Shown here piece after piece: positions 7,633 through 13,525 of a stretch of 40,520 nucleotides of DNA. Position 1 is the first letter of the stretch. The number at the start of each line of letters is the position of its first letter. The position numbers were made by a program, and so were the translations under genes. The notes beneath the pieces were generated by a model that was given only the letters and a program-made list of their open reading frames with translations, was not told the origin of the DNA and made no database searches. The DNA comes from a virus, in IMG/VR virus record IMGVR_UViG_3300007559_000009, positions 1 to 40,520 of that record; one strand, written 5' to 3'.

Positions 7633-8733
7633 ATGGCAGTATTCATTGATGTGGAATGTTATAAAGACTACTTTCTTTTTTGCGCTAAAAATAGTAAGTC
7701 AGGGAAGATTACTAAAATTCCTATGCACGCTGATTGTAAGTTAAATAAAGAACTATTAGGTGAAATATTAAAAGTAGAACTTATTAGCTTTAATGGTAAT
7801 AACTATGATCTACCAATTATATCTGGAGCATTAGCAGGATGGGATTGTCAAAAATTACATAAATTATCAAATCAAATAATATTAAGTGATAAACCCACTT
7901 ATCAGATTTTAAAAGATAAAGATTTAACGGTAAAAAATTATAACCATATTGACCTTATAGAAGTTGCCATTGGAGTTGCGTCATTAAAGATATATGGTGG
8001 TAGATTGCATACTCAAAAGATGCAAGATTTACCTATAGACCCACAAAGTTCTATCTCGCCAGAACAACGTGAAATATTAGAACTTTATTGTCAAAACGAT
8101 TTGGAATTGACGGAGCTTCTTTATAACAAGTTATTACCTCAAATAAATCTCCGTAGAGAAATGAAAGCCACCTACGGTATGGATTTACGTTCTAAATCTG
8201 ATGCTCAAATTGCTGAAACAGTTATTAAATCAGAACTTAATGCTATAACTAATGATGCATATAGCCCCAAAGATTATGCAGAAGGATTTGTCTTTAATTA
8301 TAAAGACCCTTTGATTATTTCGTTTAAAAATCCAGAGCTAATTAATATTTATAATAGTTTGCTTGAACAAGAATTTACTTTGTCAGCTAAAGGCTCTGTA
8401 CAGATGCCAACGTGGTTGGCTAGACAAAAAATAACAATAGGTAACACTATTTATAAAATGGGGATTGGTGGTTTACATAGTTGTGAGAAAAGCCAATTAG
8501 TAAAAGCATCATCTACTTATTTAATAAGCGATTTTGATGTAACTTCTTTTTATCCTAGTATTATTTTGCAACAAGAACTTTATCCTGAAAATATGGGTAG
8601 AGAGTTTTTAACCTTATATAAATCTATTGTTGAACGTAGAATATTTGCAAAAAAAATGGTTTCTGAATTACAATGTCGAATTGAAACTTTGGAAAGAGAG
8701 ATCGAAAATGCCATTACCAAAAAGACCTTATAG
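7633..8733 (+). CDS. Family B DNA polymerase, N-terminal half (exonuclease and motif A), split gene
   Basis: A 366-residue fragment. 3'-5' exonuclease motifs are visible: FIDVECYKDY (Exo I, Asp6 and Glu8), FNGNNYDLPII (Exo II) and YCQNDLELTELLY (Exo III). Polymerase motif A is DFDVTSFYPSIIL with the metal-binding Asp at residue 302. The reading frame then enters a helical stretch (SELQCRIETLEREIE) and stops at 8733 inside the start of the homing endonuclease gene. Motifs B and C are in the separate ORF at 9345-10151. AAGGA precedes the ATG by 6 bases. The break lies between motifs A and B, where family B enzymes have the tip of the fingers, so two halves could assemble. The last 8 codons or so are probably insertion-derived. 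Confidence 0.9.
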   Translation: MAVFIDVECYKDYFLFCAKNSKSGKITKIPMHADCKLNKELLGEILKVELISFNGNNYDLPIISGALAGWDCQKLHKLSNQIILSDKPTYQILKDKDLTVKNYNHIDLIEVAIGVASLKIYGGRLHTQKMQDLPIDPQSSISPEQREILELYCQNDLELTELLYNKLLPQINLRREMKATYGMDLRSKSDAQIAETVIKSELNAITNDAYSPKDYAEGFVFNYKDPLIISFKNPELINIYNSLLEQEFTLSAKGSVQMPTWLARQKITIGNTIYKMGIGGLHSCEKSQLVKASSTYLISDFDVTSFYPSIILQQELYPENMGREFLTLYKSIVERRIFAKKMVSELQCRIETLEREIENAITKKTL

Positions 8734-9382
8734 TAAACGAGGGGATAAAGAAGAATGTGTAAAACATCCTTTATACATAACTTGGCACAACATGATGCGA
8801 AGATGTTATTTTGAAAAAGACAATTCATTTTTAAATTATGGAGCTAGAGGTATTGTGGTTTGCAAAGAATGGCATCGTTTTAAAAATTTTTTAAAAGATA
8901 TGGGTGATAAACCATCTAAATATCATAGTTTAGATCGTATTGATAACGATCTGGGTTATTCAAAATATAATTGTAGATGGGCAACTCGATCACAACAATG
9001 TGATAACAGGCGGACATTTAAAAATAATACTTCCGGTGAGAGAGGGATACAAAAAACAAACTTTGGTTTTTCAGCACGTTACGATTACGAACGTGTCAGA
9101 TATCATATTGGACACTTTATAACTTTTCAAGAAGCTGTGGAGGCTAGAAAAGCCTTTATAAAAATGCTCCATCTTGATAAAGAGCAAGCAATAAAATCCA
9201 TTTCAAATGAAACCGTGTGGAATAATTCTAAAACAAAAGTAAGAGGAGTCACACCCCATGTTGATGGGGGTTATATTGTCAGAGTGGGTGTTAAAGGTGT
9301 CCGTCATTATATTGGATATTTTAAAACTATAGAGGAAGCGTCTGATGCAAGACATAAATTTATTAAAGAAAGAACTGGTTGA
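8708..9382 (+). CDS. HNH-AP2 homing endonuclease splitting the DNA polymerase gene
   Basis: A 224-residue nuclease of the YGARGI-V-x-x-EW type. The HNH core includes LNYGARGIVVCKEWHRF near residue 40 and SLDRIDNDLGYSKYNCRWAT near residue 72. Two AP2-like domains follow, one from SGERGIQKTNFGFSARYDYE and one from KVRGVTPHVDGGYIVRVGVK. The ATG at 8708 overlaps the end of the polymerase N-half, and GAAAGAGAG lies 7 bases upstream. The gene's end overlaps the start of the polymerase C-half. It lies in the +1 frame relative to the N-half. The core closely resembles the HNH enzyme nested in intein 2. Almost all of the insertion is coding sequence, so there is no room for a ribozyme. Confidence 0.92.
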   Translation: MPLPKRPYSKRGDKEECVKHPLYITWHNMMRRCYFEKDNSFLNYGARGIVVCKEWHRFKNFLKDMGDKPSKYHSLDRIDNDLGYSKYNCRWATRSQQCDNRRTFKNNTSGERGIQKTNFGFSARYDYERVRYHIGHFITFQEAVEARKAFIKMLHLDKEQAIKSISNETVWNNSKTKVRGVTPHVDGGYIVRVGVKGVRHYIGYFKTIEEASDARHKFIKERTG

Positions 9383-10151
9383 AGCAAAAGCACAATTAAA
9401 TATGTATAAGACTGAGGAGGCTAGTAAAAAAATACAACTCAATGGCTCATACGGCAAATTTGGAAGCAGATTTAGTGCTTTATATTCACCTGAACTATTA
9501 CTACAAACTACTATAACAGGGCAATTAAGTTTGCTAATGCTAATTGAAGTATTAGAAGAAAATAATATACAAGTTGTTAGTGCAAACACTGATGGAATTG
9601 TAACTAAATATCGAGCAGAAGATAGTGAGTTAGTGCAGAAACTACTTGCTGAATGGACATTAAAAACAACCTACAATCTTGAACAAACAGATTATAGGAT
9701 AATAGCTTCAAGGGATGTTAATAATTATTTAGCAGTTAAAACTGATGGCAAGACAAAAGGAAAAGGTTGTTTTGCTGATCCGTCATTGTCTAAGAACCCT
9801 GACGGGCAAATAATTTATGAAGCGGTAATAGCTAAAATAGCATCAGGTAAACCGATTAGCCAAACTATTAAAAAATGCACTGACATTACTAAATTTGTGA
9901 CTGTGCGTACGGTTACCGGTGGTGCAATGTGGCAGGATACATATTTAGGAAAAGCCATAAGATTTTACCATACGTCAATACCAGAATTGAAAGAAGTAAC
10001 TATAACCTATGCTAAAAATGGCAATAAAGTGCCATTAAGTTTAGGATGTATGCCCCTTATGGATTTGCCAGATACTTTTCCTACTGATATTGATTATGAT
10101 TATTACATTATGAAAGCAAATGAATTATTAACAGGAGTTGGTTATGCTTGA
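9345..10151 (+). CDS. Family B DNA polymerase, C-terminal half (motifs B and C), split gene
   Basis: A 268-residue fragment starting with a charged helix (LLKKELVEAKAQLNMYKTEE). Motif B follows (KKIQLNGSYGKFG, residues 28-40), then motif C (SANTDGIVTKY, Asp83). It therefore holds the template/nucleotide-binding helix and the second catalytic Asp, while motif A is on the other polypeptide. It has a convincing start of its own: AGAGGAA lies 7 bases before the ATG at 9345, within the end of the endonuclease gene. This supports translation as a separate subunit rather than RNA splicing. Its end overlaps the VRR-NUC gene. A trans-assembled polymerase is inferred. Confidence 0.9.
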   Translation: MQDINLLKKELVEAKAQLNMYKTEEASKKIQLNGSYGKFGSRFSALYSPELLLQTTITGQLSLLMLIEVLEENNIQVVSANTDGIVTKYRAEDSELVQKLLAEWTLKTTYNLEQTDYRIIASRDVNNYLAVKTDGKTKGKGCFADPSLSKNPDGQIIYEAVIAKIASGKPISQTIKKCTDITKFVTVRTVTGGAMWQDTYLGKAIRFYHTSIPELKEVTITYAKNGNKVPLSLGCMPLMDLPDTFPTDIDYDYYIMKANELLTGVGYA

Positions 10152-10410
10152 ACGAGATATAGAAAAAGCATTATGTAAAAAAGTAAAAGAATTAGGGGGG
10201 ACATGTGAAAAATATACCTCTCCAAGTAGACGTTTTGTACCTGATAGATTGGTTATGCTCCCTGATAAACGTATTATTTTTGTAGAGTGCAAAGCACTAG
10301 GTAAAGTTCCAACAATAGCTCAAAAAAATGACCATGACCGCAGAAGAGCTATGGGGTTTGATGTAAGAGTAATAGACAGTATGGAGCAAGTTAATGCCTT
10401 CCCGAATTGA
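10144..10410 (+). CDS. VRR-NUC domain nuclease
   Basis: An 88-residue single-domain PD-(D/E)XK nuclease. The sequence shows GGTCEKYTSPSRRFVPDRLV followed by IIFVECKALGK (the E-x-K pair) and then TIAQKNDHDRRRAMGFDVRV, the usual VRR-NUC order of Asp, Glu and Lys. Such proteins are common in phage replication regions and are thought to resolve branched DNA. The ATG at 10144 has AGGAG 6 bases upstream; the TTG at 10138 is too close to it. It overlaps the polymerase C-half and the helicase, so the three are probably co-translated. Confidence 0.9.
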   Translation: MLERDIEKALCKKVKELGGTCEKYTSPSRRFVPDRLVMLPDKRIIFVECKALGKVPTIAQKNDHDRRRAMGFDVRVIDSMEQVNAFPN

Positions 10411-13400
10411 TTTACACGAATATCAAAATAGAGCTGTTGATTTTATAAAAGATAAAAAACGCTCATTTTTAATGTTAGAAATGGGTTTGGGCAAAACCGT
10501 ATCAACATTAACTGCTATTAGCGATTTATTAAAAACTAAATTAGTAAAAAAAGTATTAGTAATAGCCCCATTGCGAGTAGCCAATTCTGTGTGGGTTCAA
10601 GAATCACGCAAATGGGAACATACTAAACATTTATCTGTAGCTAGGGTGTTGGGTGACCAAAATGCACGCCTTAAAGTTTTACACTATGACTACGATGTTT
10701 ATGTCATTAACCGAGAAAATGTCCAATGGTTAGTTAATCATTACGGTAAAAAATGGGCATTTGATATGGTGGTTATTGATGAATGTTTCCCTGAAGGAAC
10801 TATGATATTGACCCCTTTAGGAGTTCGTGATATAAAACATCTTGAAACAGGTGATTTAGTAATGACATCTGTCGGTGAAATGCCTATTACAAAAACTTTT
10901 AGGAAACAAACAAATGAACTCGTTAAATTATATTTATCCGATGGATCAACAATTGAATGTACAAGAGATCATCCTTTTGCAACAGAAAAGGGGTGGGTAC
11001 AAGCATGGCGATGTAGGGGCTTGCATTTTGTGCGGAACGATTTTTATGAAACGAAAGCTGACTCATCAGCTATGCAGCAAAACTTGTTCAAAGAAACAAA
11101 TGCATTTGATGAAAACCCCAGAAGAAAGAGCAGCTATTTTATTAAAATCTGGAACTACTGCAAAAAGAAGATATGCAAATGGGGAAATAAAAATTTGGAA
11201 CAAAGGGAAAGAATGGTCAGAAGAAATAAAGAAAAAATTAAGCGATGCACACAAGAAAAGTGGGCATCGACCGATAACAAGAGGTGGAAATGGAAAAATA
11301 GCACGTTGCGAACAATTAATGTTAGAAATGTTATCAGACGAATGGAAAATGCAATGTGTGATACCTACCAAAATGCCAAGAGGGTCGGGTTATCCAACAT
11401 GTTACAAAGTAGATTTTGGCATTTATTCAAAAAAAATAGCTATAGAGGTGGATGGAAACTCTCACAGATCGCGAAAGCGTCAAGACGAAAAGAAAGATAC
11501 CTTTCTTCAACAGTTAGGGTGGACTATATTGAGAATATCAAATGTGAAAGTGGAAGAACAGTATACAATTTGGAAACAGACGGGATTAACGATTACTTTG
11601 CCGAAGGGATTTTAGTTCATAATTGTTCTTCATTTAAAAACCCTGCAAGCCAACGCTTTAAAGCCATGAAAAAGATACTACCTTTTGTTGAGTATATGGT
11701 TCTCCTGACGGGTACACCTTCCCCTAATGGGCTATTAGACTTGTGGTCGCAATGTTATCTTGTTGACTATGGTAATTCATTAGGGCGCACGATGACTGCA
11801 TATAAGCAACGCTTTTTTGAGCAAGATTATATGGGATATAGCTTTACCCCAAGAAAAGGCGCACAAGCATCAATTCAAAAACTGATGCAACCTTATAGTT
11901 TATCAATGCAAACCGCTGATTATTTGGAATTGCCAGATCGAATTGATTTGATAGAAGAAATAGAATTAGATAGTAAAAGTTTAGCTTTATATAAAGCCTT
12001 TGAGCGTGATTTATTCATAGAGTTTGAAGGGCATCAAGTAGAAGCCATTAACGCTGCTGTATTAGCTAATAAGTTGCTGCAATATTGCATAGCTGAAGGT
12101 ACTGAAGTATTAACAGATGGTGGTTGGAAACCAATAGAAATATTACACGAAAACGATATGTTGTGGGACGGTATAGAATGGTCAAACTATTCCAAATTAG
12201 TTTGCAACGGATATAAAGATGTAATAAAATTGGACGGTGTAAAAATGACACCCGAACACAAGGTTTTAACAATATCGGGATGGGAAACAGCCGGAGATAT
12301 ATTAAATGGTAATGCCAGTGAAAGATTTAACAGGGCTAACGTTCGGTTACCTGACGGTTTTAAAGAAAGCCGGAACAAGCAAAAACAAAAATGCAACATG
12401 GTTATGCAAATGTGTATGTGGAAACGAGATTATTCGCATTGGAAGCAATTTGCACAATCGACCGTTAAGACCCGGAAAAGCATCATGCGGATGTTCACTT
12501 GGAGAAACAATATTGGAAGGTCGCAAACGATTAGGTCTATCCCATCACGGTATGGCTCGCACAAGACCCTATCGAATTTGGACAAATATGCGTTCTCGGT
12601 GTTTGAACAAAAAAGACAAGGATTTTTCAAACTATGGGGCAAGAGGGATACTGGTTTGCAAAGAATGGGAAGTTTCTTTCAAAAATTTTTGGGAAGATAT
12701 GTCGGAAAGTTATCAGGATCATTTGACATTAGAGAGAATGGACAACGAAAAAGGCTATTCGAAAGAAAATTGTCGTTGGGCAACTGTGCAAGAGCAATCA
12801 AACAATACTCGTGTGAACCGTTGGATAAATACTCCGAATGGAAAAATGACGGTAACTCAAGCGTCAGTTTTTTACAAAATAAAAACGGTAACATTGTATG
12901 CAAGGATATTTCGGTACAAATGGGACGAATCTCAATGGTTCAATCAACCGATAAAGAAAAAAAAAGAGTCTATGACATTGTAAATTGCGGTAAAAGAAAT
13001 AGATTTACTGTGCGTGGCGACGCAGGTCAATTACTTATTGTCCACAATTGCAACGGGGCAATATATGTTGATGAATATAAGAATTGGGGAGAAATTCATA
13101 CCGCAAAACTTGATGCTCTAGCTGAATTAATTGAGCAAAATGACGAAAACATCCTTGTAGCTTATAACTATAGAAGTGATCTTGAACGCCTACAGGCACG
13201 TTTTCCAACAGCAGTACGCTTAGACAAACATGATGAAACTATACAAGCATGGAATAGAGGTGAAATTAAATTGTTATTAGCTCATCCGCAATCAGCAGGA
13301 CATGGTATCAACCTTTATGACGGTGGGTGTATGACCGTTTGGTTTTCATTGTGTTGGTCATTAGAATATTACCAACAATTCAATGCGAGATTACATCGTC

Positions 13401-13525
13401 AAGGGCAAACTAAACCCGTACGTATTGTACATTTAGTTGTAAAAGACGGCATTGATGGCAGGGTGATGCAAGTTATAAATGAGAAAGATGCCACGCAGAA
13501 TCGGCTATTGAGCGCATTGCGTTAA
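10394..13525 (+). CDS. SNF2-family DNA helicase precursor containing two inteins
   Basis: One uninterrupted 1043-codon frame. Removing both inteins leaves about 442 residues, a normal size for a phage SNF2 helicase. Visible extein motifs are motif I (LEMGLGKT, Lys34), motif Ia (VLVIAPLRV), motif II (VVIDE at 126-130), VLLTGTPSPNG (motif III), AGHGINL (motif V) and QFNARLHRQGQTKPVRI (motif VI). Intein 1 replaces the junction right after motif II (IDE/CSSFKN); intein 2 lies at LLQY/CNGAIY. The enzyme cannot be active until intein 1 is spliced, since it interrupts the Walker B region. It overlaps the VRR-NUC gene. The helicase probably remodels or unwinds DNA at phage forks. Confidence 0.93.
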   Translation: MPSRIDLHEYQNRAVDFIKDKKRSFLMLEMGLGKTVSTLTAISDLLKTKLVKKVLVIAPLRVANSVWVQESRKWEHTKHLSVARVLGDQNARLKVLHYDYDVYVINRENVQWLVNHYGKKWAFDMVVIDECFPEGTMILTPLGVRDIKHLETGDLVMTSVGEMPITKTFRKQTNELVKLYLSDGSTIECTRDHPFATEKGWVQAWRCRGLHFVRNDFYETKADSSAMQQNLFKETNAFDENPRRKSSYFIKIWNYCKKKICKWGNKNLEQRERMVRRNKEKIKRCTQEKWASTDNKRWKWKNSTLRTINVRNVIRRMENAMCDTYQNAKRVGLSNMLQSRFWHLFKKNSYRGGWKLSQIAKASRRKERYLSSTVRVDYIENIKCESGRTVYNLETDGINDYFAEGILVHNCSSFKNPASQRFKAMKKILPFVEYMVLLTGTPSPNGLLDLWSQCYLVDYGNSLGRTMTAYKQRFFEQDYMGYSFTPRKGAQASIQKLMQPYSLSMQTADYLELPDRIDLIEEIELDSKSLALYKAFERDLFIEFEGHQVEAINAAVLANKLLQYCIAEGTEVLTDGGWKPIEILHENDMLWDGIEWSNYSKLVCNGYKDVIKLDGVKMTPEHKVLTISGWETAGDILNGNASERFNRANVRLPDGFKESRNKQKQKCNMVMQMCMWKRDYSHWKQFAQSTVKTRKSIMRMFTWRNNIGRSQTIRSIPSRYGSHKTLSNLDKYAFSVFEQKRQGFFKLWGKRDTGLQRMGSFFQKFLGRYVGKLSGSFDIRENGQRKRLFERKLSLGNCARAIKQYSCEPLDKYSEWKNDGNSSVSFLQNKNGNIVCKDISVQMGRISMVQSTDKEKKRVYDIVNCGKRNRFTVRGDAGQLLIVHNCNGAIYVDEYKNWGEIHTAKLDALAELIEQNDENILVAYNYRSDLERLQARFPTAVRLDKHDETIQAWNRGEIKLLLAHPQSAGHGINLYDGGCMTVWFSLCWSLEYYQQFNARLHRQGQTKPVRIVHLVVKDGIDGRVMQVINEKDATQNRLLSALR
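10784..11623 (+). mobile_element. Intein 1 in the helicase, with an out-of-frame nested endonuclease
   Basis: A 280-residue intein at helicase residues 131-410. Block A is CFPEGTMILTPLG with catalytic Cys1, and block B is CTRDHPFATEKGW. Blocks F and G are VYNLETDGINDYFAEGILVH and HN, followed by Cys at +1. All residues for standard Cys-type splicing are present. Between B and F, where an in-frame endonuclease would normally sit, the intein frame reads about 180 codons of unrecognisable basic sequence. The +1 frame of the same DNA encodes a Vsr/DUF559-type endonuclease. The intein frame has no stop throughout. Confidence 0.93.
10914..11615 (+). CDS. Vsr/DUF559-like (EDxHD) homing endonuclease nested in intein 1, +1 frame
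   Basis: A 233-residue ORF lying entirely inside intein 1. The recognisable part starts with a zinc finger (CILC, then CSKTC), continues through a NUMOD3-like helix (IWNKGKEWSEEIKKKLSDAH) and ends in a PD-(D/E)XK Vsr-type core (CEQLMLEML, VDFGIY, IAIEVDGNSH, RQDEKKD, LGWTILRIS). This EDxHD family is known from homing endonucleases linked to split inteins. The ATG at 10914 is preferred because AGGAA lies 8 bases upstream; TTG at 10977 is an alternative and an earlier ATG at 10875 lacks support. The first 25 or so and last 18 residues overlap intein splicing blocks and are probably passengers. Confidence 0.88.
   Translation: MNSLNYIYPMDQQLNVQEIILLQQKRGGYKHGDVGACILCGTIFMKRKLTHQLCSKTCSKKQMHLMKTPEERAAILLKSGTTAKRRYANGEIKIWNKGKEWSEEIKKKLSDAHKKSGHRPITRGGNGKIARCEQLMLEMLSDEWKMQCVIPTKMPRGSGYPTCYKVDFGIYSKKIAIEVDGNSHRSRKRQDEKKDTFLQQLGWTILRISNVKVEEQYTIWKQTGLTITLPKGF
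12086..13048 (+). mobile_element. Intein 2 in the helicase, with an out-of-frame nested endonuclease
   Basis: A 321-residue intein at helicase residues 565-885. Block A is CIAEGTEVLTDGGW with Cys1, block B is MTPEHKVLTISGW, block F is RVYDIVNCGKRNRFTVRG, and block G is LLIVHN, followed by Cys at +1 (CNGAIY). Splicing residues look complete. The roughly 220 codons between B and F read as low-meaning basic sequence in the intein frame and stay open. The +1 frame encodes an HNH homing endonuclease. The architecture matches intein 1, but the nested nuclease is from a different family. Confidence 0.93.
12306..12983 (+). CDS. HNH homing endonuclease nested in intein 2, +1 frame
   Basis: A 225-residue ORF inside intein 2. 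It starts MVMPVKDLTGLTFGYLTVL, the usual opening of many phage HNH proteins, followed by a Cys-rich zinc segment (WLCKCVCGNE, ASCGC). The HNH core is FSNYGARGILVCKEW and then LTLERMDNEKGYSKENCRWA, with a C-terminal helix-turn-helix-like tail (NGKMTVTQASVFYKI). GGAG lies 9 bases before the ATG at 12306; ATG 12312 is also possible. Its start falls after intein block B and its stop just after block F begins, so overlap with essential splicing codons is minimal. Its core closely resembles the polymerase-splitting enzyme at 8708-9382. Confidence 0.92.
   Translation: MVMPVKDLTGLTFGYLTVLKKAGTSKNKNATWLCKCVCGNEIIRIGSNLHNRPLRPGKASCGCSLGETILEGRKRLGLSHHGMARTRPYRIWTNMRSRCLNKKDKDFSNYGARGILVCKEWEVSFKNFWEDMSESYQDHLTLERMDNEKGYSKENCRWATVQEQSNNTRVNRWINTPNGKMTVTQASVFYKIKTVTLYARIFRYKWDESQWFNQPIKKKKESMTL

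Follow-up and report, generated by a model that had tools for sequence, protein, structure and literature searches.

Canonical mobile inteins, such as PI-SceI and PI-MtuI, combine a Hint splicing domain with a nuclease located between blocks B and F, and show empty-site polymorphism among related alleles. In the fractured genes reportedly described by Dassa et al. in NAR in 2009, the host gene is broken into two open reading frames (ORFs) with a split intein and a free-standing endonuclease gene, and intein splicing is thus combined with an endonuclease that is its own gene at the endonuclease position. Free-standing HNH endonucleases of phages (phrog_374) often move through the cutting of neighbouring genes. 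A further arrangement is the ShiLan domain, presented together with the Pacc40 insert (Arsenault, Gosselin and Gogarten, 2025, Genes 16:178, PMC11855218), where an HNH gene occupies another frame of an insert that is open in the methylase host frame, and where the patchy distribution suggests homing; no splicing domain is detectable there, no ribosome-binding site is present, and the insert is thought to stay in the protein. For overlapping reading frames in actinobacteriophages, that paper cites a preprint of Gosselin, Arsenault and Gogarten (bioRxiv 2025.01.02.630785) on actinobacteriophage inteins ("non-canonical architecture") and Gorbalenya (1998, NAR, "Non-canonical inteins"); both may contain related cases, and the preprint may overlap with the present finding.

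Then, could an endonuclease gene be hidden in a second reading frame of an otherwise complete intein? Here, we describe such a case in a viral DNA of 40,520 nucleotides (IMG/VR record IMGVR_UViG_3300007559_000009), the whole of which is called the window below. The second of two inteins in its helicase gene is very probably a mobile composite, in which a Hint splicing domain in the helicase frame and an HNH homing endonuclease gene in the +1 frame are written in the same DNA on the same strand, with splicing, translation and cleavage as its predicted activities. In contrast to canonical mobile inteins, the HNH nuclease is not in frame with the splicing domain, and its product is predicted to be separate from the precursor. 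The host ORF is unbroken and overlaps the endonuclease gene, which differs from the fractured genes, and a split is found in a relative (L222) rather than in the window. Unlike ShiLan, a complete intein surrounds the hidden gene, and Shine-Dalgarno (SD) signals occur at the nested starts. Such nested inteins are best regarded as a new and widespread version of the mobile intein; an out-of-frame HNH insert that is not spliced has already been published.

The helicase gene and its inteins

The features of the locus are as follows, with related loci denoted by L and a number.

10394–13525, plus strand: host gene, SNF2/DEAD-type phage helicase, 1043-aa precursor with two inteins and no internal stop
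10784–11623, plus strand: intein 1, 280 aa, inserted in the helicase DE-box, from Cys1 to VHN, then Cys+1
10914–11615, plus strand: gene nested in intein 1 in the +1 frame, zinc finger and EDxHD (Vsr-like, DUF559) nuclease
12086–13048, plus strand: intein 2, 321 aa, with Cys1, TxxH and HN, then Cys
12086–12304, plus strand: N-terminal splicing region of intein 2, blocks A and B, 90% identity with L004
12293–12296, plus strand: GGAG, Shine-Dalgarno-like in sequence, 9-nt spacer to the nested ATG
12306–12983, plus strand: nested HNH gene (phrog_374), predicted homing endonuclease, 225 aa, +1 frame
12362–12928, plus strand: host-frame translation of the nested gene, a disordered loop at the endonuclease position of the intein as predicted from pLDDT
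12968–13048, plus strand: C-terminal splicing region of intein 2, blocks F and G with the HN end, overlapping the nested TAA
13049–13051, plus strand: Cys+1 of the C-extein, kept in the intein-free L125 and L126, Ser in L127

The host ORF matches SNF2-rel_dom (E 2.5e-19) and the phrog_62 DNA helicase (E 2e-138). Its second intein begins with Cys1 (TGC, 12086–12088) and ends with Asn321 (AAT, 13046–13048), followed by Cys+1; block B reads TPEH and blocks F and G read VYDIVNCGKRNRF...LLIVHN. In an alignment of 25 inteins, C1, T55, H58 and N321 are invariant, and V295, D297, R306, F307, H320 and N321 are invariant or nearly so. Residues 1–79 and 290–321 form a Hint fold in the AlphaFold2 model, with pLDDT of 85–95 over most of it (87–95 in the N-terminal region up to residue 70), while pLDDT is mostly below 50 for residues 93–281. 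The model was aligned by VIA-align with the Mtu RecA intein (3ifj) over 118 residues, with a Z of 15.9 and an rmsd of 2.3. The hallmarks of a class 1 intein (Cys1 nucleophile, TxxH in block B, C-terminal His-Asn and Cys+1) are found together with the Hint fold, and exact empty sites occur at site 2 in L125, L126, L127 and L084. As judged from sequence and model, intein 2 is a complete Hint-type intein, whose splicing is predicted; the initial annotation, which had described complete splicing blocks and an open frame, is borne out by C1, TPEH, HN followed by C, and the lack of an internal stop.

The nested HNH gene starts with ATG, and its TAA (12981–12983) falls within block F. The start at 12306, the GGAG 9 bases upstream and the stop just inside block F had all been located by the initial annotation, exactly to the base. 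Its protein matches the phrog_374 HNH endonuclease with an E of 1e-60 and has a Cys-rich N-terminal region, an HNH core and a C-terminal HTH-like segment; in an alignment of 22 rows, R144, Y151, N155, C156, W158 and N167 are conserved, as expected for the HNH family. For the structural model (mean pLDDT 80), no significant match was returned by Foldseek, PacI was the sole match shown by VIA-align (Z 5.2, weak), and the match to the I-HmuI profile was also weak (E 0.67). Since the fold matches are weak, the identity of the nested nuclease is taken from its sequence. SD matches of at least 4 nt were present at 47 of 48 nested starts in the +1 frame and 28 of 32 in the +2 frame, compared with 31% and 20% of internal control windows (p ~1e-19 and ~4e-12, respectively), a comparison of ORF 5' ends with internal windows that is no proof of initiation. 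In the +2 lineage (L097–L118), about 98 nt after Cys1, the conserved motif WDGEEWVC of the intein is encoded by DNA like GGA(G)GAGGAGTGGGTATG, which is a protein motif, an SD sequence and the nested start codon at once.

A similar nesting, with an unrelated nuclease, had been noted for intein 1, and it is found here as well. Intein 1 matches PF14890 Intein_splicing (E 4e-12) and TIGR01445, and its +1 gene matches DUF559 (E 3e-11), with GTG at 10875 as an alternative start. The ExDGxSH (EDxHD-type) motif and a Cys cluster are invariant in 6 nested relatives. This nuclease is nested in the +1 frame in 78 of its 80 best IMG/VR relatives, and an EDxHD gene is nested in the same frame in helicase inteins of Vibrio, Pseudomonas and Corynebacterium phages. 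Among the EDxHD relatives, 9 of 10 host ORFs checked match Intein_splicing, the tenth being truncated at the start of its locus. The EDxHD nuclease of the fractured-gene system presumably resembles the gene nested in intein 1. In addition, L341 (2166–5639) carries an EDxHD-nested intein in a gene that fuses a helicase with an N6/N4 DNA methylase and is thus similar in type to Pacc40 gp60 of the ShiLan paper.

Elsewhere in the window, the DNA polymerase gene (7633–10151) consists of two ORFs, 7633–8733 and 9345–10151, both overlapped by an HNH gene at 8627–9382. A GIY-YIG-like gene lies ahead of a similar C-terminal polymerase ORF in L089 and at another point in L004, and the polymerase of L084 is one unbroken ORF. 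The window polymerase looks like a gene broken by homing genes without an intein.

Host frame across the nested genes

The host frame stays open for 225 codons across the nested HNH gene. With nesting in +1, every HNH codon that ends in T and is followed by AA, AG or GA creates a host-frame stop. None of the 68 codons at such risk ends in T, compared with 57 of the 156 safe codons; in the gene nested in intein 1, the corresponding counts are 0 of 75 and 56 of 170. When synonymous codons of the HNH gene were permuted, 16.6 ± 2.6 host-frame stops appeared, with a minimum of 7 in 5,000 shuffles, and resampling from phage codon usage gave 27.6 ± 3.4 with a minimum of 15. The free-standing HNH relatives, which are homologous to the nested nuclease, do not avoid stops in the second frame: 63 non-redundant members have 4–46 stops in the corresponding frame. 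Among 93 related phage inteins with nests of at least 150 codons (21,630 codons), there are 0 stops in the host frame and 1,453 in the third frame. The chance of an open host frame had been put at about 3 in 100,000 by the initial annotation, which is far too mild in view of the 0 of 68 risk codons and the shuffle minimum of 7 stops.

In 11 independent pairs of nested genes, the nested frame has an omega of 0.33, the host frame one of 1.22 and the third frame one of 1.73; it should be noted that omegas of overlapping frames are interdependent, so the host value of 1.22 partly mirrors the constraint on the nested gene. Single-step stop changes in these pairs number 19 in the host frame against 64.6 expected, and 77 in the third frame against 84.0 expected. 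Between the nested HNH genes of the window and L004, 49 of the 93 differences fall at HNH third positions (omega ~0.36). Taken together, omega and the stop-change counts argue that the host frame between the splicing blocks is kept open with its amino acids nearly free, while the HNH protein is conserved. Selection for an open splicing frame, as had been proposed, is therefore supported by the risk codons, the nests and the stop changes alike, and openness by chance is ruled out by the codon shuffles, the 63 free-standing HNHs, the 93 nests and the stop-change counts. Purifying selection on the HNH shows that the gene is used, not that it has a role in homing intein 2.

Distribution, mobility and origins

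Based on loci with an intein-2-like N-block, we surveyed the family; this base samples the relatives of one intein, not the share among all inteins. L211 and L234 were left out because of N runs and apparent frame breaks. Among the 108 complete members remaining after clean-up, 96 contain a nested gene (57 in +1 and 39 in +2), and 12 are without a long nest. All 70 distinct nests match the HNH profile, and no match to it was found in the host-frame translations of the sampled relatives. Among the host genes are PolA, SNF2 helicases, one further helicase and a gene that is resolvase-like, the latter two assigned by reading the protein rather than by profile. In GenBank, nested HNHs are found in APSE phages, Caulobacter phages such as RW and GB2A, Shewanella SFCi1, Salmonella and Sodalis phages, as well as in Pseudomonas MR14, Gardnerella AB1 and Streptococcus Javan255. 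A single scan of genome contigs with the intein N-block found no relative of the intein 2 family, and one distant intein without a nest. Single PolA genes of L244 and L253 have two inteins each, one with a +2 nest and one with a +1 nest, and the PolA gene of L121 has a +2 nest plus a +1 ORF at an earlier intein-like site.

The relatives closest to the window bear on mobility. In L004, intein 2 is present with a nested HNH 84% identical in protein and an open host frame, and intein 1 is absent; in L084–L090, intein 1 is present with its nested gene (67%), and intein 2 is absent in those read through. The helicase of L125 is 92.6% identical to the window in extein DNA, with both intein sites empty and the junctions exact. 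The intein 1 site is empty in L004, L125, L126 and L127. At this site, the +1 residue is Ser in L004 and the empty L125–L127 and Cys in the window and L084, as expected if the intein imports its own downstream residue, which would be the cause. Between the window and L004, intein 2 DNA is 88% identical and extein DNA 67.6%; the excess points to horizontal movement of the composite. Intein and nest are lacking together from the empty sites, with exact junctions, and are shared by the window and L004. This pattern of presence and absence, with the excess identity, is an indirect pointer to homing, in which an intein-less allele would be cleaved.

In the tree of splicing domains, which is built on few columns and has many unresolved forks, +1 and +2 members group by phase, with 11 changes where shuffles give 34. 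Of the 47 +1 nests in the HNH tree, 44 lie in one clade inside the free-standing phage HNHs (97, starred), 29 +2 nests form a separate clade (99, starred), and three +1 nests (L265, L269 and L284) lie outside the main +1 clade. Since the two HNH phases come from separate clades and EDxHD occurs in another intein lineage, at least three captures of endonuclease genes by inteins are likely. Accordingly, the repeated evolutionary route suggested for this locus holds for HNHs in two phases and clades and for the unrelated EDxHD/DUF559 nuclease in a different intein lineage. The accompanying idea of free-standing genes invading mini-inteins stands in part. The position of the +1 nests inside free-standing HNHs agrees with an invasion, but a mini-intein as the recipient is conjectural, because most short inteins examined carry scars of a lost nested gene and are therefore derived. 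The nest of intein 2 itself did not arise by a recent invasion at this locus; it belongs to an old composite, which is passed on and moves as one piece in the inteins of PolA and helicase genes.

Decayed and split forms

HNH N-terminal pieces (e.g. GQTFGYLTVL) were recognised by eye in the nested frame of the short inteins L219, L119, L232, L264 and the second of L245, some with a C-terminal segment as well. Also by eye, L112 has apparently only a C-terminal HNH piece and L241 a core piece. L226, L102, L254 and L268 are shortened nests. We considered R..VRLPDG, a conserved host-frame string kept in short inteins, as an intein motif, but this reading is unnecessary; translated in +1, the string gives the HNH N-terminus GQTFGYLTVL, and the short inteins look like deletion relics. 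Decay of the nested frame beside a conserved intein frame had been named as an observation that would count against a used nested gene; it is seen in the short relics and not in most members. Since most members conserve the nested frame, decay in the relics can be regarded as the ordinary end stage of a homing cycle.

In the PolA intein of L222 (3001–4100), two ORFs lie around an HNH gene, with 5 host-frame stops through the HNH. The host frame stops ten bases past the HNH ATG and resumes at an ATG overlapping the HNH TGA (ATGA). The C-half has block F, block G and SN followed by C intact, and splicing residues are kept in both halves. Judging from these frames, L222 is a split intein around a free HNH gene. 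Its HNH (same contig as L005) belongs to the starred set that holds the +1 nests, which suggests the direction from nested to split. In L242 (1287–2300), the first PolA intein appears split around an overlapping HNH gene, and the second intein of the same gene is nested and intact.

Proposed mechanism and alternatives

In the proposed composite, the helicase frame would supply two Hint halves, linked by a read-through peptide of about 190 residues that is predicted to be disordered, and the +1 frame an HNH homing endonuclease of the phage free-standing type. A ribosome on the helicase frame would produce the precursor, from which the intein would be spliced out, and a second ribosome would start at the internal SD sequence and ATG to make the HNH enzyme. 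To judge from the distribution, this enzyme may cut intein-less helicase alleles of co-infecting phages, and repair would copy the whole composite into the gap. The nested state would have been reached several times, by HNHs in two phases and by EDxHD in another intein lineage. It could decay through internal deletion into short inteins with scars, or break apart, so that the halves of a split intein lie on either side of a free-standing endonuclease gene.

Several other readings should be weighed. Intein endonucleases are normally in-frame domains at the same position (PMC6801210), and the HNH could be such a domain, displaced by indels or sequencing errors or reached via ribosomal frameshifting. 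That is very improbable, as the profile that matches every distinct nest finds no in-frame HNH in the sampled relatives, phase is stable within large clades, and the nests have their own starts, SD signals and stops; with frameshifting, two shifts would be required to place splicing and HNH in one chain. An assembly artefact is rejected on the recurrence of the arrangement in L004, in many independent contigs and in GenBank phages, and frameshift, in-frame origin and assembly error were all dismissed on these grounds. The published ShiLan insert (PMC11855218) makes it conceivable that intein 2 no longer splices, with the helicase dead or the insert retained and only the HNH gene of importance. 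We hold this to be quite unlikely, given complete and conserved splicing blocks, a confident Hint fold, insertion into conserved helicase and PolA motifs, the avoidance of host-frame stops throughout the nests, and the splicing residues retained by both halves of the split L222.

The nested gene might instead be a true translated HNH nuclease that spreads independently of the intein and merely hitch-hikes in a safe site. The descent of the nested +1 HNHs from free-standing HNHs, with their habit of cutting neighbouring genes, agrees with such a spread, although phase and HNH clade track the splicing-domain phylogeny and intein and nest are absent together at exact empty sites and shared by L004, which renders it unlikely. 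A group I intron with an HNH gene is scarcely credible: GenBank labels gp38/gp39 of Sodalis phage SO-1, where the nested gene is homologous, as "type I self-splicing intron", but no Rfam family, and hence no group I ribozyme, reaches its gathering score in the window, and the insert has an open host frame, in which a Hint domain with Cys1 and HN followed by Cys is encoded.

Implications

Beside in-frame fusion and split inteins, out-of-frame nesting is probably a third mobile-intein architecture in phages, widespread and repeatedly evolved, which occurs in two phases, involves at least two nuclease superfamilies that are unrelated to each other, and is a source of short endonuclease-less inteins and split inteins. 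Existing annotations are affected. In APSE-1, P46 is annotated in GenBank as an HNH endonuclease inside P45. In Sodalis phage SO-1 (L281, 2578–3336), the nested HNH gp39 is annotated as an intron, and the host gene holds a complete intein. The PolA intein of Salmonella phage Ent3 (L280) is annotated with "splicing domains" only, its hidden HNH being unannotated; in the same phage, the PolA intein adjoins a helicase intein with a LAGLIDADG endonuclease. Therefore, inteins annotated without an endonuclease, such as that of Ent3 PolA, may conceal one, and some nested genes have been misread as introns, as in SO-1.

The finding also touches two old questions, namely by what route an intein acquires an endonuclease gene and where split inteins come from. 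A gene inserted at random into an intein would be out of frame two times out of three, and the nested family shows that such an insertion can survive if the splicing frame stays open. The family offers a graded series, from the nested intein to the scarred short intein and to the intein split around a free gene. It is, in addition, a large natural collection of genes that overlap on the same strand, with one of the two frames mostly constrained to openness, and as such a useful test bed for the theory of overprinting.
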